NCBI GenBank assembly: GCA_003600225.1
Contig: QZFT01000024.1
Coordinates: forward strand, 62,001-126,000
DNA: 64,000 bases
From: Pseudonocardiaceae bacterium YIM PH 21723
Lineage (GTDB): Bacteria; Actinomycetota; Actinomycetes; Mycobacteriales; Pseudonocardiaceae
Direction of reading: 5' to 3'
Positions within the stretch are counted from its first letter, which is position 1, and each line of letters starts with the position of its first letter. This document shows positions 4,014 through 62,678 of the stretch, piece by piece. Below the pieces are notes generated by a model that was not told the DNA's origin, did no database searches, and worked only from the letters and a program-made list of their open reading frames with translations. The position numbers were made by a program, and so were the translations under genes.

Positions 4014-5207
4014 TTAAGCGGCCAGTTGGAGCTGTGGCTGGCTCAGTGCGTTGTCCATGGCGATGCGGAACCTGGAGCCCGAGGCGGGCACCAGGTGTCC
4101 GTATACGTCGACGGTTGTCTTGATCGATTTGTGGCCGAGCCATCGGGACACCTCGTGGATCGGGACCAGGTTCGTCAGGGCTGTGGAGGCGAAGAAGTGC
4201 CGCAGCCCGTGGGGGTGAAACAAGGGCTTGCCCTCGTGGTCGACCAGGCCGGCTGCTTTGCTGGCCTTGGCCCACCAGTGGGCGATGGTCGAGGAGGTGT
4301 AGAGCACCGTGCGGCCGTCTGCTCGGTGGTGCGGGATGAGCAGGCCGGTGCCTGAGCGCTCCCAGACTCCGTGACGGTCGATGTGGGCGGCGATCTTGTC
4401 GCCGATGACCGTTCCGAAGGGGATGTCCCGGTATTCCCCTGCCGCCCGGTGCTTGAGTGGCACCAGCGGGTGCATGAAGTCCGGGTTGTTCGCCTTGCGG
4501 CTGGCCTGCTGGTAGATGCGGACAGTGTCCTCGCGGACGCAGTCCTCGCTGAATCCCCAGGCCTCTGCCGAGCGCAGCCCGAGCCCCGACATCAGCCAGA
4601 TGCCCAGCTTGGTGATCTCGGGCATGTGCTCTTCCAGGGCGTGGATCTGGTCGAGGTCGGGGATGTCGTCGTCGTTGACCGCTTGCCCGGCCATGCGTGG
4701 CAGCCGCAGATCGATACAGGGGTGCTCACTCATCCGCTGGTCGTTGATGCACCAGCGGAAGAACGAGCCGACCAGGGCCATCCGGTCGTTGATGGTCTTG
4801 GCCGACAGCCCGCCCTCGATCATCGCGTTGATGAGCTTCTGGGCATCGGTACGCCGGATGGTGCCGATCATGCGTCGCCCGATGACCGGCTCGATCCACA
4901 TCTCGAAGAAGGTCTTGTAGTTGTGTTTGGTGTCCTCCAGCAGGACCCGGTCGTCCAGCCAGTTCGGGACGAGGTCGCGCACGAGGATCTTGCCCCGGGA
5001 GGGGTCGAGATAGGTGCCGGCGTCCTTGTCGGCCTCCATCTTGGTTCCGAAGGCCACGGCCTCTCGTTTGGTGCGGAAGGACTTCTCCCGCTGCTTTCCG
5101 GACCGTCCGCCCGGCTCGCGGTACCGCGTGGTCCACCCGTGGTCGCACCGCGGCTTCTCGCACGGTGGGGTCCACTCGGTCTTGCATCTCTGAAATTCGG
5201 TCGCCAC
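4014..5207 (-). CDS. int: Tyrosine recombinase integrase
   Basis: The 397-residue protein has the three-part layout of phage integrases. An N-terminal arm-binding domain (about 1-75) contains Cys and an AP2-like segment, a SAM-like core-binding domain spans about 80-180, and the catalytic domain about 190-385. Catalytic residues visible are Arg in SGLGLRSAE, His and Arg in HPHGLRHFF, His in WLGHKS and the nucleophile in VDVYGHL. GTG 5207 is used. It points outward toward the left attachment region, the usual place for int in an integrated phage. It should catalyse integration, and excision together with the small protein at 5960-6142. Confidence 0.95.
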   Translation of the reverse strand: MATEFQRCKTEWTPPCEKPRCDHGWTTRYREPGGRSGKQREKSFRTKREAVAFGTKMEADKDAGTYLDPSRGKILVRDLVPNWLDDRVLLEDTKHNYKTFFEMWIEPVIGRRMIGTIRRTDAQKLINAMIEGGLSAKTINDRMALVGSFFRWCINDQRMSEHPCIDLRLPRMAGQAVNDDDIPDLDQIHALEEHMPEITKLGIWLMSGLGLRSAEAWGFSEDCVREDTVRIYQQASRKANNPDFMHPLVPLKHRAAGEYRDIPFGTVIGDKIAAHIDRHGVWERSGTGLLIPHHRADGRTVLYTSSTIAHWWAKASKAAGLVDHEGKPLFHPHGLRHFFASTALTNLVPIHEVSRWLGHKSIKTTVDVYGHLVPASGSRFRIAMDNALSQPQLQLAA

Positions 5208-37382: not shown

Positions 37383-37392
37383 GGAATCGCTT

Positions 37393-45886: not shown

Positions 45887-45888
45887 CC

Positions 45889-46665: not shown

Positions 46666-46695
46666 CCCTGCACCGCTTCTTCTCCTGGGGACCAC

Positions 46696-46998
46696 ATGGA
46701 CTTCGACGCCCTGAGCGTCGGCCTCACCGCGGGCAACCTCGCCCTGGCCTACCTCGCACTGACCTACAGCCGGCGTCGGGACGACCGCAGCGACACCGAC
46801 GCCGACATCGACCAGCTCCGCGAAGACACCCTCGCCCGCGTCGATGAACACCTCGGCCACATCTCCAGCGGCGTAGCCGCCGTCGCCAACGAACTCACCG
46901 CCCTACGCGCGGACGTGACCGACCTGAAGATCCAGACGGCCGTCCACTCCGACCGCCTCCGCACCATCAGCACCAACGGAAGGAACCACACCCTGTGA
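46696..46998 (+). CDS. Membrane-anchored coiled-coil protein (possible holin partner)
   Basis: A 100-residue protein with one N-terminal membrane segment (VGLTAGNLALAYLALTY) and a helical C-terminal part (VDEHLGHISSGVAAVANELT). Its last codons overlap the holin start. Such proteins accompany holins in actinophages and may modulate lysis. Confidence 0.62.
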   Translation: MDFDALSVGLTAGNLALAYLALTYSRRRDDRSDTDADIDQLREDTLARVDEHLGHISSGVAAVANELTALRADVTDLKIQTAVHSDRLRTISTNGRNHTL

Positions 46999-47204
46999 CC
47001 CCCACCCGCAAGATCAGCGCGTCGGCCATCGCCGGAGCACTCACCGTCCTACTTGTCTGGGCACTATCCGGCCTGGACATCACCGTGCCAGCCGAAGTCG
47101 CCGCAGCGATCACCCTGCTGATCAGCTTCGCAGTCGGCTACCTCGTACCCGAGCGGCCGACCGACCCCACCGAGCCGAACATCCCACCCGGCAGCATCCT
47201 GTAA
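46995..47204 (+). CDS. Holin
   Basis: A 69-residue protein with two membrane segments (AGALTVLLVWALSGLDI; EVAAAITLLISFAVGYLV) and a charged Pro-rich tail. GTG 46995 overlaps the upstream stop. It lies at the end of the late operon and should permeabilise the membrane for the amidase. Confidence 0.78.
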   Translation: MTPTRKISASAIAGALTVLLVWALSGLDITVPAEVAAAITLLISFAVGYLVPERPTDPTEPNIPPGSIL

Positions 47205-47211
47205 CTCTTCC

Positions 47212-47252
47212 AAGCCCCTCTCCGGACTTCATGTTCGGGGAGGGGCTTTTTT
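47212..47252 (+). terminator. Late-operon terminator
   Basis: AAGCCCCTC and GGGGCTT arms form a 15-bp stem with two mismatches, followed by six T (47247-47252). It also marks the end of the convergent minus-strand membrane-protein gene. Confidence 0.88.
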
Positions 47253-47783
47253 CATTTTTCGCACTTTTCGCGCGATCAAGGCAGAAGGTGTTCTTCGTTT
47301 CATCGACCGTGCACGTGGTTGATTACTAAGTATGTGCTTTACCTCAAAAGACATCGGCAAGGTTGCCGCAAGAAAGGCTGCCGCGAAGATTAATATGTAG
47401 GTATCGAAGGGCGGAAAAATCCGCGCTTCCTTGGCGGCCTGAATCAAGATTAGGAACACCGCCGCCATCGCTATCGCTGCTGCTTTCCCTGCCAGCAACT
47501 GCGTCTGGCGATCTTCCGCTCGACGCATCGGTGCACTGAGTCGAGCTCTGTATATGCCCGCGATTGGTATCATGAGAATTGGCGTTGCCACCATTAGTGC
47601 ATAGTTCTTTACCGAGAAGAAAACTAGGGCACAAAGAATGTTTGTGGCTATAAGGTATCGAAACAGGAGTCTTAGGGCATCTTTTTTACTTATCACCCAT
47701 CGATCTTTTTCGGGTCTTTTTATGCCGAGCACTCTTGATTTATCGGGACGTGTCTGATGTCGGTTCTTGAACACGCTCTTCAT
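47229..47783 (-). CDS. Four-segment membrane protein of the cargo region
   Basis: A 184-residue basic protein with four hydrophobic segments (about residues 40-57, 63-80, 100-117, 128-145) and Lys/Arg-rich ends. It is clearly less GC-rich than the tail genes, suggesting separate origin. It lies downstream of the toxin/immunity pair. Superinfection exclusion is one possible role for a lysogen membrane protein, but nothing specific is recognised. Confidence 0.6.
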   Translation of the reverse strand: MKSVFKNRHQTRPDKSRVLGIKRPEKDRWVISKKDALRLLFRYLIATNILCALVFFSVKNYALMVATPILMIPIAGIYRARLSAPMRRAEDRQTQLLAGKAAAIAMAAVFLILIQAAKEARIFPPFDTYILIFAAAFLAATLPMSFEVKHILSNQPRARSMKRRTPSALIARKVRKMKKAPPRT

Positions 47784-47801
47784 TGAGTGACTGGGTCCAC
47801 G

Positions 47802-48239
47802 CTAGACGGCTTCCGAGCCGCTGTACTCGGTGACCTCACAGTTCGCGAGTGTTCCGGCCCGCAAGATTTCCAATGCCGTCTGCGACACCACCAGCTCGTT
47901 CCCGGCGCCGATACCGAAATCGTCCTGGGCAGCCTGGCCGGTGATGTGGAGCCATCGGAATGCGGGGATCTCTTCCGGGCCGTCGACCTCGATGGACTGC
48001 TCGGACTGGTTGATCTCGGCGTCTCGCAACTCGAACCCGGTCAGACTCGCCTCGCCCAACCGCTCGGCGGCACTCGGCGTCACCAGGTAAGCCGGGAAAG
48101 AGGTGATCAGATCATCGCCGAGCCAGCAGTCCAGCTCCAGATGTAGGCGCTGAACCACCGGGGGGTGGGTGCTGGTGTCCAACTGAGTGTTCGCGCCCCA
48201 CTGGCCCGGTACCTCGGGTTCAAGCTGATAAAAGGTCAC
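47802..48239 (-). CDS. Presumed immunity protein for the adjacent nuclease toxin
   Basis: A 145-residue acidic protein (MTFYQLEPEVPGQWGANTQL; HLELDCWLGDDLITSFPAYL; GFELRDAEINQSEQS; VVSQTALEILRAGTLANCEV). Its shape resembles immunity proteins found beside polymorphic-toxin genes. GTG 48239 overlaps the toxin stop as GTGA, the usual toxin-immunity coupling. Assigned by context and general resemblance. Confidence 0.65.
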   Translation of the reverse strand: MTFYQLEPEVPGQWGANTQLDTSTHPPVVQRLHLELDCWLGDDLITSFPAYLVTPSAAERLGEASLTGFELRDAEINQSEQSIEVDGPEEIPAFRWLHITGQAAQDDFGIGAGNELVVSQTALEILRAGTLANCEVTEYSGSEAV

Positions 48240-48958
48240 TGCTCGTCCTTTTCTGGTTCCCTGATAGCTGGATTGAACTGGTTTCCGTACAGATCGTCCA
48301 GTCGCGTGGCCTCATCGAGCAGCTGCTGCTTCGTCGGATTCGGATTCGCCAGGTAGAACGCGTTCCAGGCCCGGCGCAGCGCGCTCAGGTGCACCTTGCG
48401 GTTCACCTCGCCGGACGGGATGCCGCGCAGGTTCTCCAGGCTGTGCATCTCCTGCGGTGCGACGACCCCCGGATAGTTGGTGATCACCTGCCGCTCCACC
48501 GCGTGATGCACCCAGACCTGCCCCTTGGTCTCCGGGTTCGCCGTGAAGAAAGTGCGCCGGTAGTTGAAATCCGTTGTCCAACCGAACGTGGCCGGCGGAT
48601 GCTTCCGGGCGGCTGGCTTCGCTGTTCGGGTACCAGCTGCGGCAGCCGGCGACGAACCGCCCTTCGAGCCAGACGATGCAGAGACCGAAGGGCCCGTCGA
48701 CACACCGATGTTCTCTTGGATCTCTCCGTATTTGGCGGCGGTCAAGACGACGAACTTATACGCCTCCTCGACCTTGGATTTCGCTAGCGCGACGTCCCGT
48801 ATTGCCGCTGCGGTCAACTTCGAATTACTGCCGTTGAAGACCGCGTTGAGCACGCCCTGGTACTCGTCGATGAGGGCACCGATGTGTTCGGGCGGGACTT
48901 CGGTCAGCTTGTCGATCGCCGCCTGGACGTCTTGTGCTAATTCTCCGGCTGTCGACAC
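48236..48958 (-). CDS. Polymorphic-toxin-like protein with HNH-type nuclease domain
   Basis: A 240-residue protein. The N-terminal 85 residues are a helical module (DVQAAIDKLTEVPPEHIGAL; ALAKSKVEEAYKFVVLTAAK) like the trafficking domains of small secreted actinobacterial toxins. A Ser/Gly-rich linker follows. The C-terminal domain has WVHHAVERQV, then HSLENLRGIP, then VHLSALRRAWNAFYL, the spacing of a His-rich HNH/endonuclease VII-type toxin fold. GTG 48958 follows GGGAG by 9 nt. No signal peptide is visible, so export would need a type VII-like route. Confidence 0.65.
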   Translation of the reverse strand: MSTAGELAQDVQAAIDKLTEVPPEHIGALIDEYQGVLNAVFNGSNSKLTAAAIRDVALAKSKVEEAYKFVVLTAAKYGEIQENIGVSTGPSVSASSGSKGGSSPAAAAGTRTAKPAARKHPPATFGWTTDFNYRRTFFTANPETKGQVWVHHAVERQVITNYPGVVAPQEMHSLENLRGIPSGEVNRKVHLSALRRAWNAFYLANPNPTKQQLLDEATRLDDLYGNQFNPAIREPEKDEQ

Positions 48959-49059
48959 GTGCAAAGGCTCCCAGAACGGTCTGACATCCTTGGATGTTTC
49001 CTGGACACGGCTCCGGCCTGGCGGCGAACTTGTCGGAGACTGCCGCCAGGCCGGAGGCT

Positions 49060-49512
49060 TTAAGCCAGGTTGGCCATCTGCTTGTACTCTTCGAAGATCT
49101 CCTTGACTGCGTCCGTGACCGGAAGTTCGTCGGACAACGACACCCACACATGGGTGTCGTGCTCGCTGAGCTTGATGTCCGTGATCTCGGCAACGGAGAC
49201 TGCGAAGTTGAACTGCCTGCTCTTCTTGCCGCTACCTGAGGTGTAGTCGAAATTTCCAACGTGGAAGTCGATATCCGTGACGATCAGGCCGGTCTCTTCT
49301 TCGACTTCACGAAGGACCGCCGGGACAAGACCTTCGTCGCCCTCGACCTTGCCGCTGGGCAATTCGAAGATGCCGCCCATGAAGTCATCGGCTGGTCGTT
49401 TCAGGAGAAGAACGTTGTCCTCATCGCGAACGATCGCCCCGACGACCAGCTGCTCCACGCCGTCGTTGCGTGCGTCGGTGGTTAGTTGTTCGAGAACAGA
49501 ACTGTCGATCAT
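49060..49512 (-). CDS. NUDIX hydrolase
   Basis: A 150-residue protein with the full NUDIX box: GKVEGDEGLVPAVLREVEEE followed by TG, on an ADDFMGGIFELPSG strand-loop. It should cleave a nucleoside diphosphate linked to another group, using Mg through the REVEEE glutamates. It lies 6 nt from the aminotransferase gene and probably forms one leftward operon with it. The natural substrate cannot be read from sequence; an NDP-sugar or modified nucleotide made by the neighbouring enzymes is plausible. Confidence 0.9.
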   Translation of the reverse strand: MIDSSVLEQLTTDARNDGVEQLVVGAIVRDEDNVLLLKRPADDFMGGIFELPSGKVEGDEGLVPAVLREVEEETGLIVTDIDFHVGNFDYTSGSGKKSRQFNFAVSVAEITDIKLSEHDTHVWVSLSDELPVTDAVKEIFEEYKQMANLA

Positions 49513-49518
49513 GCGGAT

Positions 49519-50775
49519 CTACCCTAATAGTTCGGTATGGCGGTCGACGACTTTCCGGATTCCTTCTATGTAGTTATCGATCAGCGGCAGGTCCTCCAGT
49601 CGATGCCATACGGGCAGCTTCAGCGTGTTCCGCCAGACCTGCTCGGCGACGGGGAATTGACCGCCTCGGTAAGCAACTTCTGCCCTGGCCGAGTAGTGGG
49701 GGAACATGGGCTCGGGGTCTTGGAACAAGGGCAGTTGGTTGAGAGGACCGGTCGAGCCTGGTCGATCGATCTCATGTAAGCCTTCGGCCAACAACGCTGT
49801 ATGGAAGCGCTCGATGGGCAGTCCTCCCAGTTCCTCGGGTACATAGGTCAGTGGCAGTCCATACCAGGCTGGGCGTACTCCGTCCTGGATCTCCGGGAAC
49901 TTGATTCCAGGGACGTGGCCCAGTTCCTGCCGCAGGTAGTTTGCGGTGACTTCTCGTCGCGCGAGGTAGTTGTCCAGCGAGCCGAGTTGGTCCAATGCGA
50001 TGGCCGCGGCGAGCGGGTGGATACGGAACTTCAGGCCCATGCCAGTCACTCCGTAGGCGGCTATGGGGTGATCGGCAGGGATCTCGCTCCGGCACCGTTT
50101 GTTGTAGTGGCCATGCAGCAGGACGCGGTAGTACGCCTCGTCGTCGTCGGTCAGGACGAAGCCGCCCTCACCTGCGGACAGGGGCTTCGGTCCGTTCATG
50201 GAGAACGCGGACGCGTTGCCGAATGCGCCTACCTTCACACCGTCGACCAGCGCGCCGTGTGCGTGCGAGCCGTCCTCCAACAGCGCAAGACCGTGTTCGT
50301 CAGCCAGGGTTCGAAGGGCTTGAACGTCGGCAGGGATGCCCCAGAGGTGGGTAACCATGATGGCCGTGGTCCGGTCGGTGATGTGTGCTTCGACATCGCT
50401 GACGGAGACGTTGCCAGTCTTGTCGCTGTCGGCGAGTACAGGAACAGCCCCGAGCTGGAACAGCGGGGTAGCTGTGGCGAGGAAGGTGTAGGCCGGCACG
50501 ATCACCTCGTCGCCCGGGTCGATGAACATCGACATGTAGGCCGAGTGCACTGCGGCTGTCCCCGAGCTGGTGAGAACCGCGTGCTTGGTGTCGAAGTACT
50601 CCTTGAGCCGGTCTTCCAGCTCCGCGATCACGCCCGATCGGTTGTAAATGGATACCGACTTCGTGAGCTGGGTGAGGACGGCCTCCGTGGTGGATTCTGT
50701 GATCGGCGGCCACGAGAAATGCGGTCCCGCGTTGGATATGACCGGGTTACCGCCATTGAGGGCGAGCGTCTTCAC
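49519..50775 (-). CDS. DegT/DnrJ/EryC1/StrS-family PLP aminotransferase
   Basis: A 418-residue fold-type I aminotransferase. SSGTAAVHSAYMSMFIDPGD binds PLP phosphate, LLEDGSHAHGA holds the PLP ring Asp, and FSMNGPKPLSAGEGGFVL carries the Schiff-base Lys. KFRIHPLAAAIALDQL and RPAWYGLPLTY are typical of the group that aminates keto-sugars or keto-inositols (StsC/BtrR-like). It is coupled by ATGA to the dehydrogenase gene upstream, a ketone-forming and amine-forming pair. Confidence 0.92.
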   Translation of the reverse strand: MKTLALNGGNPVISNAGPHFSWPPITESTTEAVLTQLTKSVSIYNRSGVIAELEDRLKEYFDTKHAVLTSSGTAAVHSAYMSMFIDPGDEVIVPAYTFLATATPLFQLGAVPVLADSDKTGNVSVSDVEAHITDRTTAIMVTHLWGIPADVQALRTLADEHGLALLEDGSHAHGALVDGVKVGAFGNASAFSMNGPKPLSAGEGGFVLTDDDEAYYRVLLHGHYNKRCRSEIPADHPIAAYGVTGMGLKFRIHPLAAAIALDQLGSLDNYLARREVTANYLRQELGHVPGIKFPEIQDGVRPAWYGLPLTYVPEELGGLPIERFHTALLAEGLHEIDRPGSTGPLNQLPLFQDPEPMFPHYSARAEVAYRGGQFPVAEQVWRNTLKLPVWHRLEDLPLIDNYIEGIRKVVDRHTELLG

Positions 50776-51821
50776 ACCAGCTCCTTCGGGTTGACGGACC
50801 TGCGTGTCCGGGCCGACTCGTAGCAGCCCTGAATGAAACTCAGATGCCTGATGTTCTCGCGCGGTCCGCTGAGATTCGGACGTCGTCCATCGATTACGCG
50901 GCAGAAGTGATTGACCTGGCTGACCGCAGCGGAGGGCCAGGCCTGATCGCGCGACAAGGACTCGGCAACTTCTCCGCGGTTGGTCAGCCGTTGGATCTTG
51001 CCGCGCTCCAACTGAACGATCCCGTTGCTGCCAACGAGCCTGATCTGCTCGGATTTTGGTCCGATGAATCGGGAGATCAGTAACGAGCCGTAAAGGCCGG
51101 AGTCGTAGTTGAAGTGGATCAGCGCGGTGTCCTCGGCGTCATAATCCCGATCCGGTCTGGCGGTGACGGACATATCGGCCACCAGCCGGTCTGGCAGTCC
51201 GAAGTACCACAGGAGCATGTCGATGATGTGGTAGCCCATGTCGATCACACATCCGCCGCCAGCCTTGGCTGTTTGGCCTCTCCAGCCTTCGGATGGATCA
51301 GCGGTGTGCAGTGTGTAGGCCGCGTTTACGACGAAAGGTGTGCCGATCTGGTCTGCCAGCTGAATGAAGCTCGTGTAGATCGGGTTGAAGCGCCGTTGCA
51401 GAGTCACCATCAGGTGAATGCCGGCTTCCTCGACCAGGGCTGTCAATTCCTGCGCCTCGGCGAGAGAGGTGGCGAACGGCTTCTCCTTGAGCACATGAAC
51501 CCCGTGCTTCGCGGCAGACGCGATCACACTGCGTCCTACGTCGTGGGGTACGCAGACGACCACGAAATCGAGCTGTTCCGCCGCGAACATCGAGTCTGCG
51601 TCGGAGTAGCCCGGTACCTGTAGACGGTCTTGCTGCACTCGAACAACCTCTGGGTTGTCATCGCAGACGGCGATCAGCTGGGCGCCTTCGCATCCGAGGA
51701 TGCCGGGAATGTGATCGCTCAGGGCTTGCCGGCCGAGGCCGACCACCCCAGCTCGTAGCCGTATCCCAGAACGAGATGTCTGCGGGTCATGAGCAAGCGG
51801 GAGTTGTGCCTGTTCATCCAT
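50772..51821 (-). CDS. Gfo/Idh/MocA-family NAD(P)-dependent dehydrogenase
   Basis: A 349-residue oxidoreductase: Rossmann fold AGVVGLGRQALSDHIPGI, FVVVCVPHDV, and the family EKP motif in HVLKEKPFATS, then the C-terminal domain with GGGCVIDMGYHIIDMLLWY. These enzymes oxidise or reduce sugars and inositols. As first gene of the operon it could generate the keto substrate of the aminotransferase. GGGAGGG precedes ATG 51821. Confidence 0.92.
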   Translation of the reverse strand: MDEQAQLPLAHDPQTSRSGIRLRAGVVGLGRQALSDHIPGILGCEGAQLIAVCDDNPEVVRVQQDRLQVPGYSDADSMFAAEQLDFVVVCVPHDVGRSVIASAAKHGVHVLKEKPFATSLAEAQELTALVEEAGIHLMVTLQRRFNPIYTSFIQLADQIGTPFVVNAAYTLHTADPSEGWRGQTAKAGGGCVIDMGYHIIDMLLWYFGLPDRLVADMSVTARPDRDYDAEDTALIHFNYDSGLYGSLLISRFIGPKSEQIRLVGSNGIVQLERGKIQRLTNRGEVAESLSRDQAWPSAAVSQVNHFCRVIDGRRPNLSGPRENIRHLSFIQGCYESARTRRSVNPKELV

Positions 51822-51879
51822 GCTGTCCCTCCCCAGGTGATGCAGATCAATCTGTGCCGATGAACTACCGGATGGGGTG

Positions 51880-51930
51880 CCTGGATCGCAGTCGGGGGAT
51901 TAGTCGTCATGTTGGTGACTGCGATCCAGG
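51880..51930. promoter_or_regulatory. Long-arm hairpin upstream of the dehydrogenase operon
   Basis: CCTGGATCGCAGTC (51880-51893) is repeated in inverted form at 51917-51930, a perfect 14-bp stem with a 23-nt loop. It lies between the two leftward transcription units, as a terminator of the upstream unit or an operator. Confidence 0.6.
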
Positions 51931-52000
51931 CTGTTGGGTTGCGTGGGCTCGGGGCCCTGCAATCCAACGTTCCGAGGCCTACGCCCCGGAAAATTGGTGA

Positions 52001-52309
52001 TCACTCGTGCGCGATTGCCGCGGGCTTGGTGGACCACTCGGTAAACTCGAATCCGATCTTGTCCTTCACCGCGATCACGCCATCCACGCCCAAGCGGCTC
52101 TGCTTCGCGATGAACTCCGCCAGGTCCACGGCCAAGACGAGGGCCTGCTCCCGTTCACCCGCGCCGTAAACCGTGCCGACCTCATCCCCGACCTGGATCT
52201 TGACCAGGAAGCGGTCCTGCTCCGGAGGCGCTTCCTGTACGAAGATGTCGACGATGGCATCGGCCCGCCTCAGGCCGATATCCGTTTGCACCCATAGCCA
52301 ACCGGTCAT
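52001..52309 (-). CDS. Unknown small protein of the cargo island
   Basis: A 102-residue protein (TGWLWVQTDIGLRRADAIVD; DRFLVKIQVGDEVGTVYGAG; RLGVDGVIAVKDKIGFEFTE) with alternating strands and helices. GAGGAGA lies 5-6 nt before ATG 52309. No family recognised. Confidence 0.6.
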   Translation of the reverse strand: MTGWLWVQTDIGLRRADAIVDIFVQEAPPEQDRFLVKIQVGDEVGTVYGAGEREQALVLAVDLAEFIAKQSRLGVDGVIAVKDKIGFEFTEWSTKPAAIAHE

Positions 52310-52362
52310 GCTGTTCTCCTCGAACTCGCCCAGGCCACGACTGCCCGGTTCGGACATCTGAA

Positions 52363-52539
52363 TCAGTGCTGCTCGTTGCAGCGTTGACAGGTCTGGGCAG
52401 GGTCTGCCGGGTTCCCGGGCAACACCGCCAGGGGCCTGAAGAGGTCGCCGTCGCATTCGGACTTGGCCAATCCGTCATTCGTCAGCTCTGCCTTGTGCGT
52501 CCCGCCGTCGGAAAGGGAGGCCACAATCCACTTCGCCAT
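52363..52539 (-). CDS. 58-residue Cys-containing protein
   Basis: Begins MAKWIVASLSDGGTHKAELT and ends TCQRCNEQH, with a CxxC near the end and one Cys in KSECDGD. It fits precisely between its neighbours with a good AGGAGAGCG ribosome site. Such short zinc-type proteins accompany peptide or cofactor pathways in actinomycetes, but no function is assigned. Confidence 0.55.
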   Translation of the reverse strand: MAKWIVASLSDGGTHKAELTNDGLAKSECDGDLFRPLAVLPGNPADPAQTCQRCNEQH

Positions 52540-52548
52540 CACGCTCTC

Positions 52549-52797
52549 CTACGCCGTCGCCGCGAGCAGTTCGTTCAACTGCTGGAGAGCGGCCACATGA
52601 AACTGCTCGGTCGGGGTCTCCTCCTGGCGCCTGATCGCCACGCAGTCCGGACACCGCGCGCCAGGGGCATTAAGAAGACGCTGCGGATAGGCGTAGCTGC
52701 TGCAGATGGCCATTCGGGAACCGTCGGCCCGAGGCTCCTCCGTCGAAAGGCTCGGCAAGTAGTGCGTGTTCAACAGGAAGGTCCCGAGCGCCCACAT
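52549..52797 (-). CDS. 82-residue Cys-containing protein
   Basis: MWALGTFLLNTHYLPSLSTE, MAICSSYAYPQRLLNAPG and ARCPDCVAIRRQEE: two Cys in CPDC and one in CSSYAYP could bind zinc. Its ATG overlaps the next upstream stop. It is part of a run of small leftward genes. No family recognised. Confidence 0.58.
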   Translation of the reverse strand: MWALGTFLLNTHYLPSLSTEEPRADGSRMAICSSYAYPQRLLNAPGARCPDCVAIRRQEETPTEQFHVAALQQLNELLAATA

Positions 52798-53006
52798 CAG
52801 CAGGCCTCCTGTCCGACCTGATTACCCGGCGCCTGTTCGACAAGGTCAGCGAGGCCACGAAGTGCGGTGACTAGCTCTTTACGTTCCTGGCTGGAGTACG
52901 GACGTTCGTTCTGGATGGCCAGGACATATAGGGACACCAACCTGTTGACTCGCCGGATGCGCCCAATCCACATCCCTCCGCGCTGGCTGTTCTCTGCCAT
53001 GGTCAT
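52797..53006 (-). CDS. Small basic protein
   Basis: A 69-residue protein (GGMWIGRIRRVNRLVSLYVL; ERKELVTALRGLADLVEQAP). ATG 53006 overlaps the resolvase-like gene stop as ATGA. No family recognised. Confidence 0.55.
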   Translation of the reverse strand: MTMAENSQRGGMWIGRIRRVNRLVSLYVLAIQNERPYSSQERKELVTALRGLADLVEQAPGNQVGQEAC

Positions 53007-53446
53007 TGCCACCACTCGGCCAGTTCAGTTTGGGATTGCCGGCCCGGTGTCCGAGCTGGCTTGGTGCAGTGGGCTATCAGGAGGCGGGCTCCTGTGCTTC
53101 GGATCTTCTTCTCCAGATGTCGGGCCTGCGTGTGATCGGGAGACAGATGCTGTGGGCTGACGATCACCGCGGCGAACGAATCGGGGAGACCCAAAACGTC
53201 GCAGAGTCCGATGAGTGCTGGTCTAAAGGTCGTCGGATCGACGATTCCGCGGTCGACGAACACATTGCAGAGCTGAAGGCGCTCGCGTCGGCAGTAGTGT
53301 TCTAAGGCTCGGCGGTAAATGGCCAGGTAGCTGGTCTGATGACACCTGGCACCGATGTATCCGTAGACCAGAGCTCGTTCTGATGACTCCGCGCGGAACA
53401 CACTCCTGCGCGAGAGGGCCATCTTCAGTGGGTGGATCTCATCCAT
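53003..53446 (-). CDS. Resolvase-like small protein lacking an HTH domain
   Basis: A 147-residue protein whose core ERALVYGYIGARCHQTSYLA, ERLQLCNVFVDRGIVDPTTF, VIVSPQHLSPDHTQARHLEK and GARLLIAH resembles a serine-recombinase catalytic domain. The catalytic Ser is not obvious and the C-terminal DNA-binding part is absent. It is more likely a repurposed resolvase-fold protein than an active recombinase. GGGAGGG precedes ATG 53446. First gene of the small-gene operon. Confidence 0.6.
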   Translation of the reverse strand: MDEIHPLKMALSRRSVFRAESSERALVYGYIGARCHQTSYLAIYRRALEHYCRRERLQLCNVFVDRGIVDPTTFRPALIGLCDVLGLPDSFAAVIVSPQHLSPDHTQARHLEKKIRSTGARLLIAHCTKPARTPGRQSQTELAEWWQ

Positions 53447-53518
53447 GTGTTCCCTCCCGCTGTCGTAGTGCCTGGTAGATAGCTTGGTTGGCTGCCGCGT
53501 GTTGCGTAATGAACAGGT

Positions 53519-53547
53519 GTGGCACTTCCGTGGCACCTTTGGTGCAC
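53519..53547 (+). promoter_or_regulatory. Three phased heptamers upstream of the HTH-TPR gene
   Basis: GTGGCAC at 53519 and 53530 and the related GGTGCAC at 53541 are each 11 bp apart, so they fall on one face of the helix. They lie 46-74 bp before the regulator start and between two divergent operons. This looks like an operator for the adjacent regulator. Confidence 0.55.
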
Positions 53548-53592
53548 CCGGGCGGGGTTGCGTGGTTTTATGGAGCCCCGGGGAGGTGGGGT

Positions 53593-54696
53593 GTGGCGTC
53601 AATCGCGCACTGGACTGGTCACGAAGCCAAGTTGCTGCGTCAGGCTCTCCGCCTGAGCGTGCGCGGCTTCGCCGCACGTCTAGGTATCGGTGTTCGTACG
53701 ATCACCAAATGGGAGACCTTGGGAGCCGACAGGACTCCAAATTCCTATATGCAAGGAGTTCTCGACACTGCGCTTCTTCAGGCTGCTCCTGAAGCAAAGC
53801 AGTTATTCGAACACCTAGTGCGCTCACGGGATCTTCGGCAGGTCGCCATCTTCCCTGCTGACGGGCCACAAGAATGGGATTACGAAACTTGGAGTGATGA
53901 CCTCGGCCGTATTGCAGCCTGCATATCTAGACAAGACTTCAAGTTTGCGGCCTCATTGATTGATAGATGGCTACGCAGATTTAGCATTCAAGGGCTTGAT
54001 GAGAAAGGTCAATATCTACATGCCCGCTCCTTGGCGCTCCTGGGTGACCTTCAGCGTGACCAAGGAGCAATCAAGGGGCCGATTTCAGCTCGGCAGACCT
54101 ACCGGAAAGCACATGAAGTATTCCAACAGCTGGGAATACAGCGTCGAGCCGCGCAGGTAGAACTTTCCCTGGCGGTTGTCGACGAAATGTCGGGGCTGCT
54201 GCTGCCGGCCGCAGAGAAGTACCGCGCTTTGGCCGATGATGAGCGTCTAAGTCTGCGAGACCGCAGCCGCGCGAAGCTATGGGTTGGCACGGCACTGAGC
54301 AAAGACGGTGACCACGCTTCTGCAGTCTCAATCATGGATGCGACGATCCAAGAGTTTGAAGAGCTTGAGGAGCCTGATGACTGGTCGGTGGCACACCAGA
54401 AATTGGCACTTGCTCATCGCGGCGCAGGTAACATTGATAGCTCATTGCGGTATATCGGCGTCGCGTTGGAGCACCGCCCAGCCGATTCGCCGATGCAGCG
54501 GGTTCGAATCGACACCGCGCACGCCCATATTCTTTTGTCAGACCCGAGGACAGCCGAGAATGGCGTAAGTATCCTTACCAAGACTGCTCAGGTGGCCACA
54601 AGATTCGAGCTTTCTCACCAGCTGAAAAGTATAAGAAAAATTCTCGACGAGTTCGATAGTCAGCCCACTGTCGCAAAGAGGAGCATCAAGAAGTAA
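53593..54696 (+). CDS. HTH transcriptional regulator with TPR-like C-terminal region
   Basis: A 367-residue protein from GTG 53593, 6 nt after GGGAGG. The XRE-type HTH is LRLSVRGFAARLGIGVRTIT (about residues 18-37). The C-terminal 200 residues are helical repeats (QYLHARSLALLGDLQRDQGA; RAKLWVGTALSKDGDHASA; VAHQKLALAHRGAGNIDSSL), as in signal-peptide-responsive or starvation-linked actinomycete regulators. The stop overlaps the YdcF start (TAATG). It probably controls this rightward operon and the divergent small-gene operon. Confidence 0.82.
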   Translation: MASIAHWTGHEAKLLRQALRLSVRGFAARLGIGVRTITKWETLGADRTPNSYMQGVLDTALLQAAPEAKQLFEHLVRSRDLRQVAIFPADGPQEWDYETWSDDLGRIAACISRQDFKFAASLIDRWLRRFSIQGLDEKGQYLHARSLALLGDLQRDQGAIKGPISARQTYRKAHEVFQQLGIQRRAAQVELSLAVVDEMSGLLLPAAEKYRALADDERLSLRDRSRAKLWVGTALSKDGDHASAVSIMDATIQEFEELEEPDDWSVAHQKLALAHRGAGNIDSSLRYIGVALEHRPADSPMQRVRIDTAHAHILLSDPRTAENGVSILTKTAQVATRFELSHQLKSIRKILDEFDSQPTVAKRSIKK

Positions 54697-55361
54697 TGGA
54701 TCATCGAGTAGGCGCTACTGACCAGAATCGTCAGGATGCTCAAACGATTTGGGATTTCCATCAGGTAGGGCACACGCTGGCCAAATGCGACGTTGCGATC
54801 GGTCTCGGTAGCCACGATCTGGGAGTAGCGGACTACGCGGCGGAGCTGTTCCACCAGGGCCAGTTCCCGGTACTCGTGTTCAGCGGTGGGAACAGCCCGA
54901 CGACGGCCCAGCGGTTCCCTGACGGAGAGGCAGTTCACTACAAGCGTCGTGCGCTGGAACTTGGAGTTCCGGAGGCCGCCGTTCTCGTCGAGAATCGAGC
55001 TTCCAACACGGGGCAGAACATCTCGCTGTCACGGGAGTTGCTGTTGCAGAACGGGCACTCGCCGCAGTCGGTGCTGCTCGTCTCCAAGCCGTACATGGAA
55101 CGTCGCGCCTACGCCACGTGCCGCAAGGTGTGGCCTGAAGTAGACGTGACCTGCGCTTCGGAGCCCATGAAGCTGGACGACTACGTGCAATCCATCGGCG
55201 ACGAGAAGCTGGTCATCGACATGTTGGTTGGAGATCTTCAAAGGGTGGTCGAGTACCCCCGGCTTGGCTTCGCCATCGAGCAGGAGGTGCCGGCCACGGT
55301 GGCATCGGCGTATGACCGTCTCCTCTCGGCCGGGTTCGACAGCCGGATCCTGAAGAGCTGA
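54696..55361 (+). CDS. YdcF-family (DUF218) protein
   Basis: A 221-residue protein: CDVAIGLGSHDLGVADYAAE, PVLVFSGGNSPTTAQRFPDG, ENRASNTGQNISLSRELL, LLVSKPYMERRAYATCRKVW, the DUF218 order. YdcF proteins bind nucleotide-type ligands (S-adenosylmethionine in E. coli YdcF), and DUF218 members also act in envelope and vancomycin-sensitivity pathways. No membrane segment is present, so this one is cytoplasmic. Confidence 0.85.
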   Translation: MDHRVGATDQNRQDAQTIWDFHQVGHTLAKCDVAIGLGSHDLGVADYAAELFHQGQFPVLVFSGGNSPTTAQRFPDGEAVHYKRRALELGVPEAAVLVENRASNTGQNISLSRELLLQNGHSPQSVLLVSKPYMERRAYATCRKVWPEVDVTCASEPMKLDDYVQSIGDEKLVIDMLVGDLQRVVEYPRLGFAIEQEVPATVASAYDRLLSAGFDSRILKS

Positions 55362-55363
55362 TC

Positions 55364-56104
55364 ATGCAGGTTGACCTGGTCTGCGCGATACACCAACCGA
55401 ACCTATTCCCGAGGCTATCTACGCTCGCGAAGCTCCTCGCCGCTGACGTATGGATCGTGCTGGACGATGTCCAGTTCAACAGCAGGGATTATCAGCACCG
55501 TGCGCGTCTCGCAGCGCCAGGTCAACCAGCCCCATCCCAGTGGCTCAGCTTGCCTGTGTATCGACCTCGTGGCCGCAACACCGCAATCAACGAGGTAGTG
55601 CTCCTTGAGCCGACCAAGAGTTCCAGGCGCCTCACAGGGCTACTCCAGCAGCACTACGGCCGTTCTCGTTTCTGGCCCGAAGTCCGTGCAGTCGCGTACG
55701 AGCTGGCCAAGATCGTTGGTAATGGTGGTCGCCTGGCGGAGATCACTGAGGAATCGACCCGAGCCCTACTCCAATTGCTCAACTGGCGCGGCATGGTGAT
55801 CCGCAGCAGTGAACTGGCCGTTCGCGGAGAGCGCTCAGCCCGACTGGCAGACCTCGCCTTGGCTGTCGGCGCAGATCGGTACCTATGCGGTCCGGGCGGA
55901 GCGAAGTATCTGAGTACCCAGCCTTTCAACGAATACGGCATCGAGGTTGGATATCCCGCGCCTCCGTCTCGCACCGCTTGGCAAGCCAACCGCGGTGTGA
56001 GCACCCTGCATTGGGTGGCCGAGATCGGATTCGCCGAGTTGCGGCAAGGCCTGCTGGGCGCAGAACAACCAGTGGGGTGGCGCTCGATGACTGCGACGCG
56101 GTGA
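55364..56104 (+). CDS. WbqC-family protein
   Basis: A 246-residue protein: VCAIHQPNLFPRLSTLAKLL, WIVLDDVQFNSRDYQHRARL, WLSLPVYRPRGRN, GRSRFWPEVRAV and a C-terminal GADRYLCGPGGAKYL with FNEYGIEVGY. WbqC proteins occur in O-antigen and other glycan clusters and are linked to decoration of amino sugars. Here that fits the aminotransferase/dehydrogenase pair in the facing operon. ATG 55364 is 2 nt after the YdcF stop. Confidence 0.85.
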   Translation: MQVDLVCAIHQPNLFPRLSTLAKLLAADVWIVLDDVQFNSRDYQHRARLAAPGQPAPSQWLSLPVYRPRGRNTAINEVVLLEPTKSSRRLTGLLQQHYGRSRFWPEVRAVAYELAKIVGNGGRLAEITEESTRALLQLLNWRGMVIRSSELAVRGERSARLADLALAVGADRYLCGPGGAKYLSTQPFNEYGIEVGYPAPPSRTAWQANRGVSTLHWVAEIGFAELRQGLLGAEQPVGWRSMTATR

Positions 56105-56520
56105 GTCGGCCACACGGTCCCCGCGTGCCCGAGCTAACCGCTGAATTGCGGCGCCGAGCGCTGCTCGATCAGGAAGCTCGGACAGCGTTGGGATGTCCGC
56201 CGAATGCAGATCTATGGGGAGCTGTTGCAGCTGTCGATGCCGATAACACCCCGTGGTTGAGGGATGTTGTTGATCAGTACGGATGGCCTGGTGCTCGGCT
56301 CGTGGGAGAAACCGGCGCCCATGACGCATGGCTGTTGGCACAGCACGCAGACAAACAACCGGACCTGCAAAGACACTGGCTGACGCTTCTTCGTGAAGCA
56401 GTAGAACTCGGTGACGCCGCGTCCGGTGATCTTGCATTCCTGGAAGACCGAGTAGCCGTAGGTGAACGCCGGCCACAGATTTACGGCACGCAGTGGTTCA
56501 TCATCGAAGGCGGGCGACGG

Positions 56521-57519
56521 CTAGCTGTACTGACCTGAGAGGTTAGGTACTCGGCTGGCGGGTGGTTTGCCTCCGAGTGCGGTGTGGCCGCGGTGGTGAT
56601 TGTAGGTGTGGAGCCATCGCGGCAACGCTGTCCGGCGTTGGGTTTCGGATGTGTAGGGCTGGGCGTAGGCCCATTCGTCGAGCAGGGTGCGGTTGAAGCG
56701 TTCGACCTTGCCGTTGGTCTGGGGCCGGTAGGGCCGGGTTCGTTTGTGGCTGATCTGGGTTTCGGCCAGGACGTCACGGAAGACGTGGGATCGGTAGCAC
56801 GAGCCGTTGTCGGTCAGGACGCGCTTGATGACGATCCCGGCGTCGGCGAAGTACTGACGTGCCCGGCGCCAGAACGCGGCGGCGGTTTCTTTGGTCTCAT
56901 CGGCGAGAATCTCGGTGTAGGCCAGGCGAGAGTGATCATCGACGGCGTTGTGCAGGTAGCTGTAGCCCAGGTTCGGACGGTTGCTGCGTGTGCGGGGTCT
57001 GGTGATGTCTCGGTGCGCGGAGCTGTTACGCCCGCCGAGAGCCCGGCCGTGGACTTTGTGGCCACCGCCGTCGGGGATGTTGCCGAGTTTCTTGATATCG
57101 ACGTGGACCAGGTCCCCGGGAGCTGTGTGTTCGTAGCGGCGGATCACCCGCCCGGTCGCCCGGTCCAGATGCCGTAGCCGCGCGACTCGGTAGCGAGTCA
57201 GGACACGATGGACGGTCGAGGCGTGTAAGCCCAGATGAGAGGCGATCCGGGCCGGCCCCCAGCGACGGGTGACCCGAAGGCCGATGATTCTGCGTTCGGT
57301 CCGGGTGACCGTCTTGGCGGGGCTATGGGCGGGCCGCGAACTGCGATCGACCATTCCGGCGGCTCCCAGCCGCCGATACCGGTCAGCCCAGCGCCTGGCC
57401 GTGGTCACCGCGACCTGGAACCGCTCGGCTGCCCGTCGCAACGGCCAGCCGTCCTCGATGACACACCTAGCCAGACGTAGTCGGCCCAGCTCGGTCAGGG
57501 ATGCGTTAGCGTGAGGAAT
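56521..57519 (-). CDS. IS481-family transposase
   Basis: A DDE transposase of about 332 residues: N-terminal HTH (LRRAAERFQVAVTTARRWAD), catalytic Asp in LVHVDIKKLG, Asp in VLTDNGSCYR and Glu in TNGKVERFNRTL. The conserved N-terminal sequence (PHANASLTELGRLRLARCVI) lies before any ATG/GTG/TTG; an ATT codon at 57517-57519 stands 6 nt after GGAGG. The TAG stop is formed by the flanking CTAG target duplicate. All motifs are intact, so it may still be mobile. Confidence 0.9.
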   Translation of the reverse strand: MPHANASLTELGRLRLARCVIEDGWPLRRAAERFQVAVTTARRWADRYRRLGAAGMVDRSSRPAHSPAKTVTRTERRIIGLRVTRRWGPARIASHLGLHASTVHRVLTRYRVARLRHLDRATGRVIRRYEHTAPGDLVHVDIKKLGNIPDGGGHKVHGRALGGRNSSAHRDITRPRTRSNRPNLGYSYLHNAVDDHSRLAYTEILADETKETAAAFWRRARQYFADAGIVIKRVLTDNGSCYRSHVFRDVLAETQISHKRTRPYRPQTNGKVERFNRTLLDEWAYAQPYTSETQRRTALPRWLHTYNHHRGHTALGGKPPASRVPNLSGQYS

Positions 57520-57640
57520 TGAGGGCCTCCTGGGTCACCGGTGCAGATGTCGCAATCCACACCGAACCCGGAGGCCCTCACCTACTCCAAGATCATCCGA
57601 CTACGTGTCGCTGCGTTCGCAACGTCCCGGGGCAGTACAG
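56525..57640 (-). mobile_element. Complete IS481-family insertion sequence with CTAG target duplication
   Basis: The 1116-bp element has terminal inverted repeats beginning CTGTACTG at both ends (left CTGTACTGACCTGAGAGG; right, reversed, CTGTACTGCCCCGGGACG). CTAG flanks it directly at 56521-56524 and 57641-57644. It carries one transposase gene and splits the DUF6624 gene. Confidence 0.92.
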
Positions 57641-57780
57641 CTAGCCCCCTTGCGTGATCGAGCAGGCGTCAACCTGCTCCGCGCAACTACCGGTCTGCCC
57701 ACGTTGCCCGAGGACGACATCCGGTCGGCGATGACTACGTATCCAGGGACCAGGTAAGTCGCCTAGTGGTTGTGACTGCC

Positions 57781-57857
57781 CCAGCACCAACCCAGCACAA
57801 GCCCGAGAAAGCGAGTGAAGTCGGTGGAACCCCCGGGAAGGGGTTCCACCGACTTCA
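57781..57857. other. Right integrase arm-type sites and terminator (attR side)
   Basis: CCAGCACCAACCCAGCAC (57781-57798) repeats the left-end arm pair with identical 11-bp spacing. An 18-bp perfect stem (57816-57833 with 57840-57857) follows as terminator of the WbqC/DUF6624 operon. The core should lie to the right; GTTCTACCTG (57861-57870) and CCTGAAAGC (57924-57932) have left-end partners. Confidence 0.55.
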
Positions 57858-58128
57858 TGAGTTCTACCTGCATGTTTGACAGCTACGACCTGCTGAGATA
57901 GGAGACTGCTCTCCAACTACTGACCTGAAAGCGTCTTTCAGGGCGCCCAGCCTGGCTGAGGGGCGGCTCGGCTGCGTTGAACGGGCGTGAAACCTTCAGG
58001 TCCCCGCGCAGAGCCCCCGACTACCTAGACCGGCGTGCCCCCCAACACGAAGGTAGGAAAGACGTCCCTACCCATTCGTCTCCCCTCCAAAGCCATCCTT
58101 CGGCAACCACCAGACCCAACCCCGGCAA
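57858..58128. other. Non-coding right junction, including dispersed repeat copy 2
   Basis: No gene. CTGAAAG/CTTTCAG forms a small palindrome near 57925-57941, a short dyad CGGTGTG-type region follows, and 58080-58115 is the inverted copy of the repeat at 3682-3718. The host sequence resumes somewhere here. Confidence 0.45.
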
Positions 58129-58716
58129 TCAGCCGACGCCTGCCAACAGCGCGTTCATCGTGGCGATCTCCTTGAGCTGGTCGGCGGCGATGACCGCGGC
58201 GGTGGACCGCACCACCTCGGTCTCCGCGTGCCGGGCGGCGTACCCGGCCATCTGCGCGCCGCCCCGGTGATGGCGGATCATCAGCTCCAGGAACCGGCGG
58301 TCCAGGTCCGCTCCGGTGGCCTCGCGCAGCTGCTGGAGCTCCGGTACCGACACCATGCCGGGCATCGGCGCGTCCCCGGAGCCGTGGTCCTCGTGCATCC
58401 AGGCCATCGGCTGCCCGCCGCCCACCAGCGGCGCGCGCCAGAGAGTCAGCCAGCCCTGCATGGTGCCGATCTCCTTCAGCTGGGTGCCCGCTATCCCGGC
58501 CGCGATCGCGCTGACCTGCGGCGTCGCCCGGCCCCGGGCGGCCTCGGCCATGTCCACCGCCTGCTGGTGGTGCTCGATCATGTCCTGGCTGAACCCGATG
58601 TCCACCGGGCCACCGACCGGCTCCCGGTCCGGGCCGAGCGCCAGACCGCCGAGCACGCCCAGCCCGAGCAGCATGACCGCGGACGCCGCCAGGGCCAGGA
58701 TCCGGTAGCGGCTCAC
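58129..58716 (-). CDS. DUF305-family membrane-anchored/periplasmic protein
   Basis: A 195-residue protein with an N-terminal membrane anchor (ILALAASAVMLLGLGVLGGL) and two DUF305 four-helix-bundle halves marked by FSQDMIEHHQQAVDMAE and ELMIRHHRGGAQMAGYAA. The paired His-His motifs suggest metal binding; the family is often near copper genes. GTG 58716 overlaps the upstream LVIVD gene stop (GTGA), so the two are coupled. Confidence 0.9.
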   Translation of the reverse strand: MSRYRILALAASAVMLLGLGVLGGLALGPDREPVGGPVDIGFSQDMIEHHQQAVDMAEAARGRATPQVSAIAAGIAGTQLKEIGTMQGWLTLWRAPLVGGGQPMAWMHEDHGSGDAPMPGMVSVPELQQLREATGADLDRRFLELMIRHHRGGAQMAGYAARHAETEVVRSTAAVIAADQLKEIATMNALLAGVG

Positions 58717-60164
58717 CTCTGCGGGAAGGACTTGTTGGTGAACCGCAGGGCCATCGCCCCGTTGTCATCGCAGGCGGCCAGCAGCAGGTCACCGTGGAAG
58801 AACGGCGGCGACATGCACCAGTCGGCGGTCATGTCGATCAGACCCACGTACGGCGGAGTGCCGATGTTGCCGTTGATGAAGTCGGAGGCCGGGCTGCCGA
58901 CAGTCGAGGTGACGTGGGCGGAGTTGACCAGGGTGTGCTTCTTGGCCTGCTGGCCCGGCGGGTTGTAGTAGGCGATCTCCTTGGGCTTGGTGAGATCGCG
59001 AATGTCGAATACCCGGATGCCGGACTGGCTCCAGCCGCAGGCGAGCGCGGTGGGATCGATGGTGCGGTCCATCGTGCAGTAGTGGGCCTCGTAGCCGAAG
59101 ATGCCGTTGGACGCGGTGTCCACCTTCCGGGCGCCGATGTGCTCGGGCCGGTTGATCTCCAGCTTGAGGCTCTGCACCACCTTGGGCGCCTTGTCATCGG
59201 TAACGTCGATGAACTTCACGCCGCCGGAGGCGAACTCGTTCTCCACCGAGATGTAGGATCGGCCGCCGGAGGTGAACGGGATGGCGTGCTGGGTGATCAG
59301 GCCGTCGTTCCAGGACACCGAGGACAGGTGCCGGAGCCGGGCGAACGGATCCCGCCGCTGGACGGCGCTGGAGTCCAGCACGGTGATGCCGGAGGGTACG
59401 ACCGAGGCCAGATATAGCCGGTTGCCGTCCGGGCTGATGCCGAAACCGTGGTTGGTCAGCCCGATCACGCCCGCGTAGACAACCTTGGGGTGAACCGGAT
59501 CGACCACATCGATCGCGGTGACGGTGCCGCCGATGGCCCCGGTCGACCAGTAGGTGCGGCCGTCGGGTGACCAGCCGCCCTCGTGCGCGCCGACGATCGG
59601 CAGCGGCAGCGTGAGGTTCGTACCGGCCACTCCGTTGAGCAGCCGGGGATGCCGGCAGTCGGTCTTGACGTCGTACACCGCGAAGAAGAGGCCGCCGTTG
59701 CCCGGGCCGACGGCCATGGCGGCCAGCAGCCCACGTTCCTGGTGGACCTTCAGCGTCTCCCAGGTGCCGCCGAGCATCGCCGGACTGGTCAGGCTGTCGG
59801 TCAGCACCGGATTCGCCGGGGCGGCGAAGTCGACCACGTTCACGCCGCGGTTCTTCGCCGCGAGATTGCTGGTGACGATCGAGCCCAGGTACTGACAGCT
59901 CCCGTAGCTCGCGCCGACGGTGGCCTGGCCCTGACCCTGGTACTGGCCGACCAGTTCCAGGTTGCAGTGGTAGGCGCTCTGACTGCGCCCGCTCTTGCGG
60001 TCGGCGGCCGGAACCTGGCCCTGCAGGCCGGTTTCCGGGGCGGAACCGGATCCGCAGACGGCGGGCGCGATCGCGTCCGCTGGAGCGTCGGCGCGGGCCG
60101 GAACGGCCAGTGCGGTGCTCGCGATCAGCAGGGTGGCGAGCAGGCGAACTCGCTTACCGAACAT
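58713..60164 (-). CDS. Secreted LVIVD-repeat beta-propeller protein
   Basis: A 483-residue protein with a signal peptide (LLATLLIASTALAVPARA) and repeated strands of the LVIVD type (VNVVDFAAPANPVLTDS; VTAIDVVDPVHPKVVYAG; VKFIDVTDDKAPKVVQ; IRVFDIRDLTKPKEIAYY). They would fold as an extracellular propeller. Paired with DUF305 it is a recurrent actinobacterial secreted module of unknown role. Confidence 0.87.
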   Translation of the reverse strand: MFGKRVRLLATLLIASTALAVPARADAPADAIAPAVCGSGSAPETGLQGQVPAADRKSGRSQSAYHCNLELVGQYQGQGQATVGASYGSCQYLGSIVTSNLAAKNRGVNVVDFAAPANPVLTDSLTSPAMLGGTWETLKVHQERGLLAAMAVGPGNGGLFFAVYDVKTDCRHPRLLNGVAGTNLTLPLPIVGAHEGGWSPDGRTYWSTGAIGGTVTAIDVVDPVHPKVVYAGVIGLTNHGFGISPDGNRLYLASVVPSGITVLDSSAVQRRDPFARLRHLSSVSWNDGLITQHAIPFTSGGRSYISVENEFASGGVKFIDVTDDKAPKVVQSLKLEINRPEHIGARKVDTASNGIFGYEAHYCTMDRTIDPTALACGWSQSGIRVFDIRDLTKPKEIAYYNPPGQQAKKHTLVNSAHVTSTVGSPASDFINGNIGTPPYVGLIDMTADWCMSPPFFHGDLLLAACDDNGAMALRFTNKSFPQR

Positions 60165-60175
60165 GGCGACTCCCG

Positions 60176-61896: not shown

Positions 61897-61923
61897 GCAC
61901 GTCCTCCGGACGGGGCACGGCGA

Positions 61924-61953: not shown

Positions 61954-61963
61954 TATCGACACT

Positions 61964-62605: not shown

Positions 62606-62613
62606 CCGTGGTA

Positions 62614-62670: not shown

Positions 62671-62678
62671 ATCATGGA

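Follow-up and report, generated by a model that had tools for sequence, protein, structure and literature searches.

Genes of the Island

We analysed a stretch of 64,000 nucleotides from Pseudonocardiaceae bacterium YIM PH 21723 (contig QZFT01000024.1, positions 62,001 to 126,000 of the forward strand), hereafter the window, and found in its right part an island made up of two gene modules (Table 1). Module A comprises a Gfo/Idh/MocA dehydrogenase (Gfo), a DegT/StrS-type aminotransferase (DegT) and a NUDIX hydrolase, while module B consists of res, divergent from genes for a helix-turn-helix (HTH) and tetratricopeptide repeat (TPR) regulator, HTH-TPR, followed by YdcF and WbqC. Both modules recur at other loci independently of each other, and the island is probably a chimera of the two. 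The gene families are ordinary, and it is their arrangement that was found to be undescribed. The genes listed in an original prediction for this DNA are real and lie where it had placed them, as judged by Pfam, with HTH-TPR below the family cut-offs. Its leftward run of small cysteine-containing proteins also stood, in the order res, c3, c2, c2b, c1, with start-to-stop overlaps between res and c3 and between c3 and c2; the cysteine motifs lie in c2 (CPDC) and c2b (CQRC).

Table 1. Features of the island, and the prophage integrase, in window coordinates.
Feature	Coordinates	Strand	Evidence
NUDIX hydrolase, module A	49060..49512	-	PF00293, E 8.9e-15; exact NUDIX box
DegT/StrS-type aminotransferase, module A	49519..50775	-	PF01041, 245.6 bits; Lys197
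Gfo/Idh/MocA dehydrogenase, module A	50772..51821	-	PF01408 and PF22725 above cut-off; EKP at 113
15-bp perfect inverted repeat in the strongly folded c1-gfo leader	51879..51931	-	z -6.63
c1, small protein	52001..52309	-	No Pfam match
c2b, 58 amino acids, CQRC	52363..52539	-	Translation
c2, 82 amino acids, CPDC	52549..52797	-	Translation; sub-threshold Pfam match only
c3, small protein	52797..53006	-	33% match at locus L018
res, serine-recombinase-fold protein without the catalytic serine	53003..53446	-	Predicted structure, alignment
11-bp iterated element, likely HTH-TPR operator	53518..53548	+	Comparison of upstream regions
HTH-TPR regulator, module B	53593..54696	+	Start from alignment with relatives; HTH and TPR matches below Pfam cut-off
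YdcF/DUF218 protein, module B	54696..55361	+	PF02698, 67 bits; 3ca8, E 2.6e-8
WbqC, BshC-like predicted fold, module B	55364..56104	+	PF08889, 116.1 bits; Z 14.7 to 4wbd
DUF6624 protein; insertion sequence displaces the 3' part; rest of frame at about 57640-57757	56101..56538	+	PF20329, E 1e-17; empty-site join
IS481-family insertion sequence	56526..57639	-	rve and rve_3; inverted ends; 6-bp duplication GCTAGC
Tyrosine integrase of the prophage	4014..5207	-	PF00589; XerC/XerD-like

Module B Recurs with Exchangeable Neighbours

Module B was surveyed at the best 80 of 362 YdcF-subfamily loci, which were found with a YdcF alignment; genes in unannotated loci were called by a crude script based on GC content at third codon positions, without a trained caller. 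Matches of any kind to HTH-TPR, WbqC and res were seen at 68, 58 and 48 of these loci, and near-full-length ones at 54, 45 and 46, respectively, WbqC being partial, split or distant in 13 of the 58 loci with a match. Near-full-length HTH-TPR and WbqC stood together at 41 of the 80 loci, and res was there as well at 39. Order-level genomes and plasmids gave the same picture: WbqC at E<=1e-50 was found in five other genomes of the order, with HTH-TPR and YdcF directly upstream in all five, and the order HTH-TPR, YdcF, WbqC was kept in all six Streptomyces plasmids opened, from eight with closely related WbqC. No description of this divergent res/HTH-TPR-YdcF-WbqC unit was found in the open-licence literature.

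Judged by their sequences, the genes on the res side are exchangeable, and enzymes for ribosomally synthesised and post-translationally modified peptides (RiPPs) are among them. Considering the clusters present in at least three loci, each named from one representative, we found AdoHcyase-like proteins at 10 of the 80 loci, NUDIX at 8, HATPase at 8, methyltransferases at 5, JmjC at 5 and radical S-adenosylmethionine (SAM) proteins at 4. A synthetase-like protein at 11 loci (L051:6817-7938) had no Pfam, NCBIfam or PADLOC match, and its HIGT and KLSKS motifs are what we take to be those of a class I synthetase; another cluster, in 10 loci and without a Pfam match, is presumably phosphotransferase-like. 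As the representative of the methyltransferase cluster (L040) is not on the res side, five res-side members were scanned instead. Three of these passed the FxLD cut-off (L027, L028 and L089), a fourth (L052) was above the cut-off for ATP-grasp systems and the fifth (L018) was below it, while L018 carries on its res side an ATP-grasp peptide maturase above cut-off. Neither an ATP-grasp maturase nor a RiPP-system methyltransferase was found among the island proteins scanned. An integrase-like or relaxase-like cluster was present at 19 of the 80 loci, the integrase being identified by Pfam on one representative and the relaxase-like label being our assumption for a representative without a Pfam match. 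A hemL cluster was present at 15 loci. At L046, L049 and L090 (10001-10642), YdcF has hemL and cytochrome c assembly genes nearby and lacks WbqC, and HTH-TPR matches are weak or absent.

The description of res as resolvase-like was right for the fold only. Its predicted structure (predicted local distance difference test score, pLDDT, 78.5) matches the catalytic domains of serine recombinases (best Foldseek E 6.2e-5, probability 1.00). Res had no Pfam match, and none of 23 aligned rows, namely 22 of the 46 near-full-length res proteins and that of the window, has serine after the first strand, at what we take from the resolvase motif to be the catalytic position.

Module A Recurs without Module B

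At E<=1e-60, DegT was found in 6 of 296 genomes of the class, and 23 of 297 genomes of the family have it at E<=1e-90, the own genome being counted both times; 20 of the 23 places outside the window were fetched. These 20 loci comprise 13 with contiguous Gfo-DegT-NUDIX, four with DegT alone and three that are partial. As locus L116 and plasmid pSGZL (L124) also carry the triple, contiguous Gfo-DegT-NUDIX occurs at 15 of 22 DegT loci outside the window. With two more distant DegT loci, L117 and L118, the set examined for module B genes came to 24. WbqC of the window kind (E<=1e-3) was found at none of them, HTH-TPR gave only weak matches, three of them at about 1e-4, and a res-like protein was present at five. 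Conversely, more than one gene of Gfo-DegT-NUDIX was found at none of the 80 YdcF loci, and a single match, of 25-43% identity, at four.

The original prediction had grouped the island's genes as one system and named a neighbourhood comparison as a check. Run here, that comparison found that the two halves occur independently. Since they are independent elsewhere and their linkage in the window is apparently a local fusion, the island-wide claim of one system drops.

Elsewhere, module A has its own candidate regulators. Among 10 tested genes divergent from Gfo, with the placement resting on our own gene calls or on record annotation, nine were above the HTH cut-off and two above the TPR cut-off. 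Module A is thus usually found with its own divergent regulator, and the window joins the module A enzymes to the regulator of module B. Gfo-DegT-NUDIX stands beside divergent HTH regulators at L172, L180, L116 and L124. In three of these four loci a cyclo-ligase-like gene is also present, and the three such neighbours of module A that were tested were all below the family cut-off. On pSGZL, an alaS gene lies beside the module A cassette. At L182:8556-10082, between NUDIX and a lone YdcF, there is an FxLD-system methyltransferase above cut-off and a small protein with the motif WDLD.

A Conserved Iterated Element Precedes HTH-TPR

The region between res and HTH-TPR contains an iterated element of 19 bp with an 11-bp period, TGTKGCACTTCCGTKGCAC. 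Upstream regions of HTH-TPR were compared at 58 loci, the window included, and in every one the best match to the element fell between -80 and -65. In 54 of these it scored 15-19 of 19, compared with at most 14 in 261 stretches drawn at random from these loci; the six plasmid loci scored 13-18. This position and conservation suggest that the element is likely the operator bound by HTH-TPR. As divergent HTH regulators and some res-like proteins are also found at other module A loci, both units of the window may share a control region.

Two further candidates for regulation were rejected. A wider regulon via the element was not borne out, as the own genome holds one exact copy and one match with three mismatches versus 10 matches for the reversed control pattern. 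In the region before gfo, scores for the element stayed within the random range, at 11-13 for the window and for L116 and L124. The folded leader was also considered as a conserved riboregulator; its inverted repeat (51879-51931) was not found among 16 other gfo leaders, and L183 has an unrelated 18-bp repeat. Rfam gave no match in 46-60 kb, and sigma-70 and terminator scans gave chance-level results only.

Predicted Activities of the Encoded Proteins

The catalytic motifs of module A are intact, namely the NUDIX box, Lys197 of DegT and EKP of Gfo. The PF01041 match and the pyridoxal phosphate lysine, Lys197, place DegT in the DegT/DnrJ/EryC1/StrS family. Its best PDB match is 8gyh/8gyi, and none of the papers listed for this entry names 8gyi. 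No NCBIfam equivalog cut-off for amino-sugar or aminocyclitol transaminases was reached, the best being PseC (175.2 vs 423.5 bits). Gfo and DegT are predicted from their families to act as a ring-hydroxyl dehydrogenase and a transaminase that together give a sugar-like amine. The earlier guess that a dehydrogenase and a StrS-type aminotransferase would turn a hydroxyl into an amine is therefore sound, as the families matched and the catalytic residues are present.

WbqC proteins are known from an O-antigen context. The window protein belongs to their family (PF08889, against a cut-off of 21.3 bits), and its predicted model (pLDDT 90.3) matches BshC 4wbd with Z 14.7 and a root-mean-square deviation of 3.2 over 224 of 246 residues; other structural matches had Z <=7.9 and were mostly class I aminoacyl-tRNA synthetases. 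A search of the PDB sequences with the WbqC profile gave no credible match. The motifs HQPN and CGxGG were present in all 32 aligned WbqC rows (31 of 45 near-full-length proteins and that of the window), and relatives of BshC from the same phylum, collected via PF10079, have GQQPG in 7 of 10 and CGPGE in 10 of 10. This comparison of motifs was made by eye, needs a one-residue gap and uses 10 of 12 BshC loci. On the basis of the fold match and the similar motifs, our proposal, made with moderate confidence, is that WbqC acts in joining acyl or aminoacyl groups. BshC itself is described in a passage of PMC4360819 as the putative enzyme that ligates cysteine in bacillithiol synthesis, and by 2015 this activity had not been demonstrated in vitro.

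Prophage Setting and Insertion Sequence

The island had been described as lying next to attR of a prophage. The prophage is present, with the tyrosine integrase at 4014-5207 and, within 29852-41867, genes for endolysin, terminase, portal, major head and tape-measure proteins. Its attR was not recovered, as a direct-repeat search for the attachment core found no exact repeat >15 bp linking bases 1-30000 with 45000-64000. CCAGCAC occurs as a pair spaced by 11 bp at just two places in the window, 3988 and 57781, and these pairs, as putative integrase arm sites at both prophage ends, would place the island inside the prophage. The GC content of the island is 0.602, compared with 0.675 for the phage core and 0.679 and 0.685 for the flanks. 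A 16-bp inverted match (GATGGCTTTGGAGGGG) is found at both prophage flanks (3700-3715 and 58082-58097), and within the prophage a PD-(D/E)XK nuclease gene adjoins one for an AAA ATPase (12756-13562 and 11866-12792). An attempt to find the empty prophage site via a right-flank protein was dropped, since the best match was 49% and the genomes listed beyond the own one were from other genera.

The DUF6624 gene is cut by an IS481-family element (56526-57639), which the original prediction did not mention. The element has an rve transposase, inverted ends TGTACTG and the target duplication GCTAGC, which has the form NCTAGN, and the transposase stop is the TAG of CTAG in the target sequence. It agrees with ISRe46, for which a passage of PMC6794481 reports an NCTAGN target and the use of TAG as the transposase stop. 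DUF6624 had no match at any of the best 80 YdcF loci and, among the loci examined, was seen in the window only.

A Probable Chimera of Two Accessory Modules and Its Rivals

We read the island, with a probability of roughly 0.65, as a chimera in which two accessory modules of actinomycetes are joined around one divergent control region, near the right end of the prophage. The gene content, the independent recurrence of both modules, the conserved element and the predicted fold match are observed; for the working of the island, we infer HTH-TPR binding, co-transcription and a set of enzyme activities and substrates. HTH-TPR would bind the iterated element in the divergent region of module B, and module A, downstream of res and the four small proteins, would be readable from this same region. 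Gfo would oxidise a sugar or cyclitol at a ring hydroxyl, DegT would convert the ketone into an amine, and NUDIX would hydrolyse a nucleotide derivative. WbqC, with its BshC-like predicted fold, would join an amino acid or a similar group to an amine, and YdcF, which shares the fold of a SAM-binding Escherichia coli member, would work with WbqC. The formation of the amine and the joining of an amino acid to an amine may occur separately or together.

Several observations weigh against this reading. The 80 loci were taken as the best by YdcF score and not at random, and short contigs are among them; 12 of the 80 lack an HTH-TPR match and 22 a WbqC match. At 2 of the 24 DegT loci a gene of the YdcF subfamily is present, with both WbqC and HTH-TPR missing, a frequency that was judged, not computed, to be above chance. 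Four of the 58 upstream regions score 13-14 for the element, inside the control range, and its consensus was drawn from these same, related regions, which are thus not independent cases. The hairpin in the c1-gfo gap may keep the res transcript from extending into module A. For WbqC, Foldseek ranks BshC second (E 0.03), behind a ThiF match, the comparison with BshC by hhalign was not significant (probability 1%, E 0.056, with controls at E 0.22-0.74) and, at E<=0.1, only PF08889 was matched and not the BshC model PF10079.

If both halves nevertheless formed one pathway, WbqC would acylate the amino sugar or aminocyclitol of module A to give a mycothiol-like, bacillithiol-like or aminoacylated molecule, with DUF6624 in tailoring. 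The amine-forming pair and the BshC-like WbqC do lie within 7 kb and have one possible control region, and a passage of PMC4360819 reviews BshC and MshC as ligases that add cysteine to amino-sugar conjugates. We consider this improbable, as the halves occur together at no other locus examined and module B has no module A beside it at any of the 80 YdcF loci. That an amine-forming cassette and a BshC-like protein work as a pair is nonetheless an attractive, if unproven, possibility. Its boldest form, an HTH-TPR-controlled mobile pathway in which WbqC, as a short BshC-like ligase, would couple cysteine or another amino acid to the Gfo-DegT amine and so provide a phage-borne counterpart to mycothiol or bacillithiol synthesis, is a long shot that would provide the first activity for the WbqC family.

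A better, still tentative, alternative is that module B acts as a partner, regulatory or tailoring, of cassettes for RiPPs and other specialised metabolites, which are swapped on the res side and represented here by module A. It would account for the FxLD and ATP-grasp methyltransferases, the maturase at L018 and the radical SAM, JmjC, NUDIX and AdoHcyase-like representatives on the res side, and DUF6624 is reported in a passage of PMC13097080 to be highly frequent in four graspetide groups (18, 20, 23 and 42), as a possible biosynthetic enzyme. However, apart from res, no res-side cluster is found in more than 11 of the 80 loci, and the window island lacks RiPP enzymes among the proteins scanned. 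The exchanged RiPP-type genes and the graspetide link of DUF6624 favour a specialised-metabolite role over defence. The latter, suggested earlier alongside envelope change and superinfection exclusion, found no support and is the least probable of the readings. The island does lie near a prophage end, and the DUF218 paralogues SanA and ElyC affect peptidoglycan and enterobacterial common antigen in E. coli, but the same source, in the passage concerned (PMC12176290), calls E. coli YdcF cytoplasmic and SAM-binding. PADLOC recognised in the island only the NUDIX protein, by the broad NUDIX model PDC-S07, WbqC of the window kind was absent from 50,697 phage records, in which YdcF gave one weak, partial match, and viral contigs held three distant WbqC (22-26%) and no YdcF.

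In summary, the chimera of two accessory modules best accounts for the independent recurrence of its halves. The divergent res/HTH-TPR-YdcF-WbqC unit with its element is a compact recurrent actinomycete module whose neighbours are exchanged, and would give genome miners a handle on cryptic cassettes. If the fold link is true, WbqC proteins would also gain a testable activity, namely, as has been proposed for BshC, the coupling of an amine with an amino acid.

Comparison with Known Systems

The insertion sequence is like the IS481 family in its rve-type transposase, NCTAGN duplication and CTAG-supplied stop, and no difference was noted. The YdcF protein resembles E. coli YdcF (3ca8) and other DUF218 proteins, matching PF02698 above cut-off in addition to its profile match. 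Among actinomycete integrative conjugative elements, no papers on ones with a Nudix gene were found. DegT matches 2-deoxy-scyllo-inosose aminotransferase, perosamine synthetase and AHBA synthase among 49 PDB sequences, and amino-sugar and aminocyclitol pathways with DegT/StrS and Gfo/Idh enzymes use the same families as module A, to which the window pair adds a NUDIX hydrolase. Compared with BshC (4wbd), WbqC is alike in predicted fold and in the Q-P and CGxG motifs, and is shorter. Within PF08889, the window protein falls into a subfamily, with about 41-54% identity to it in the aligned rows, which is tied to HTH-TPR and YdcF.

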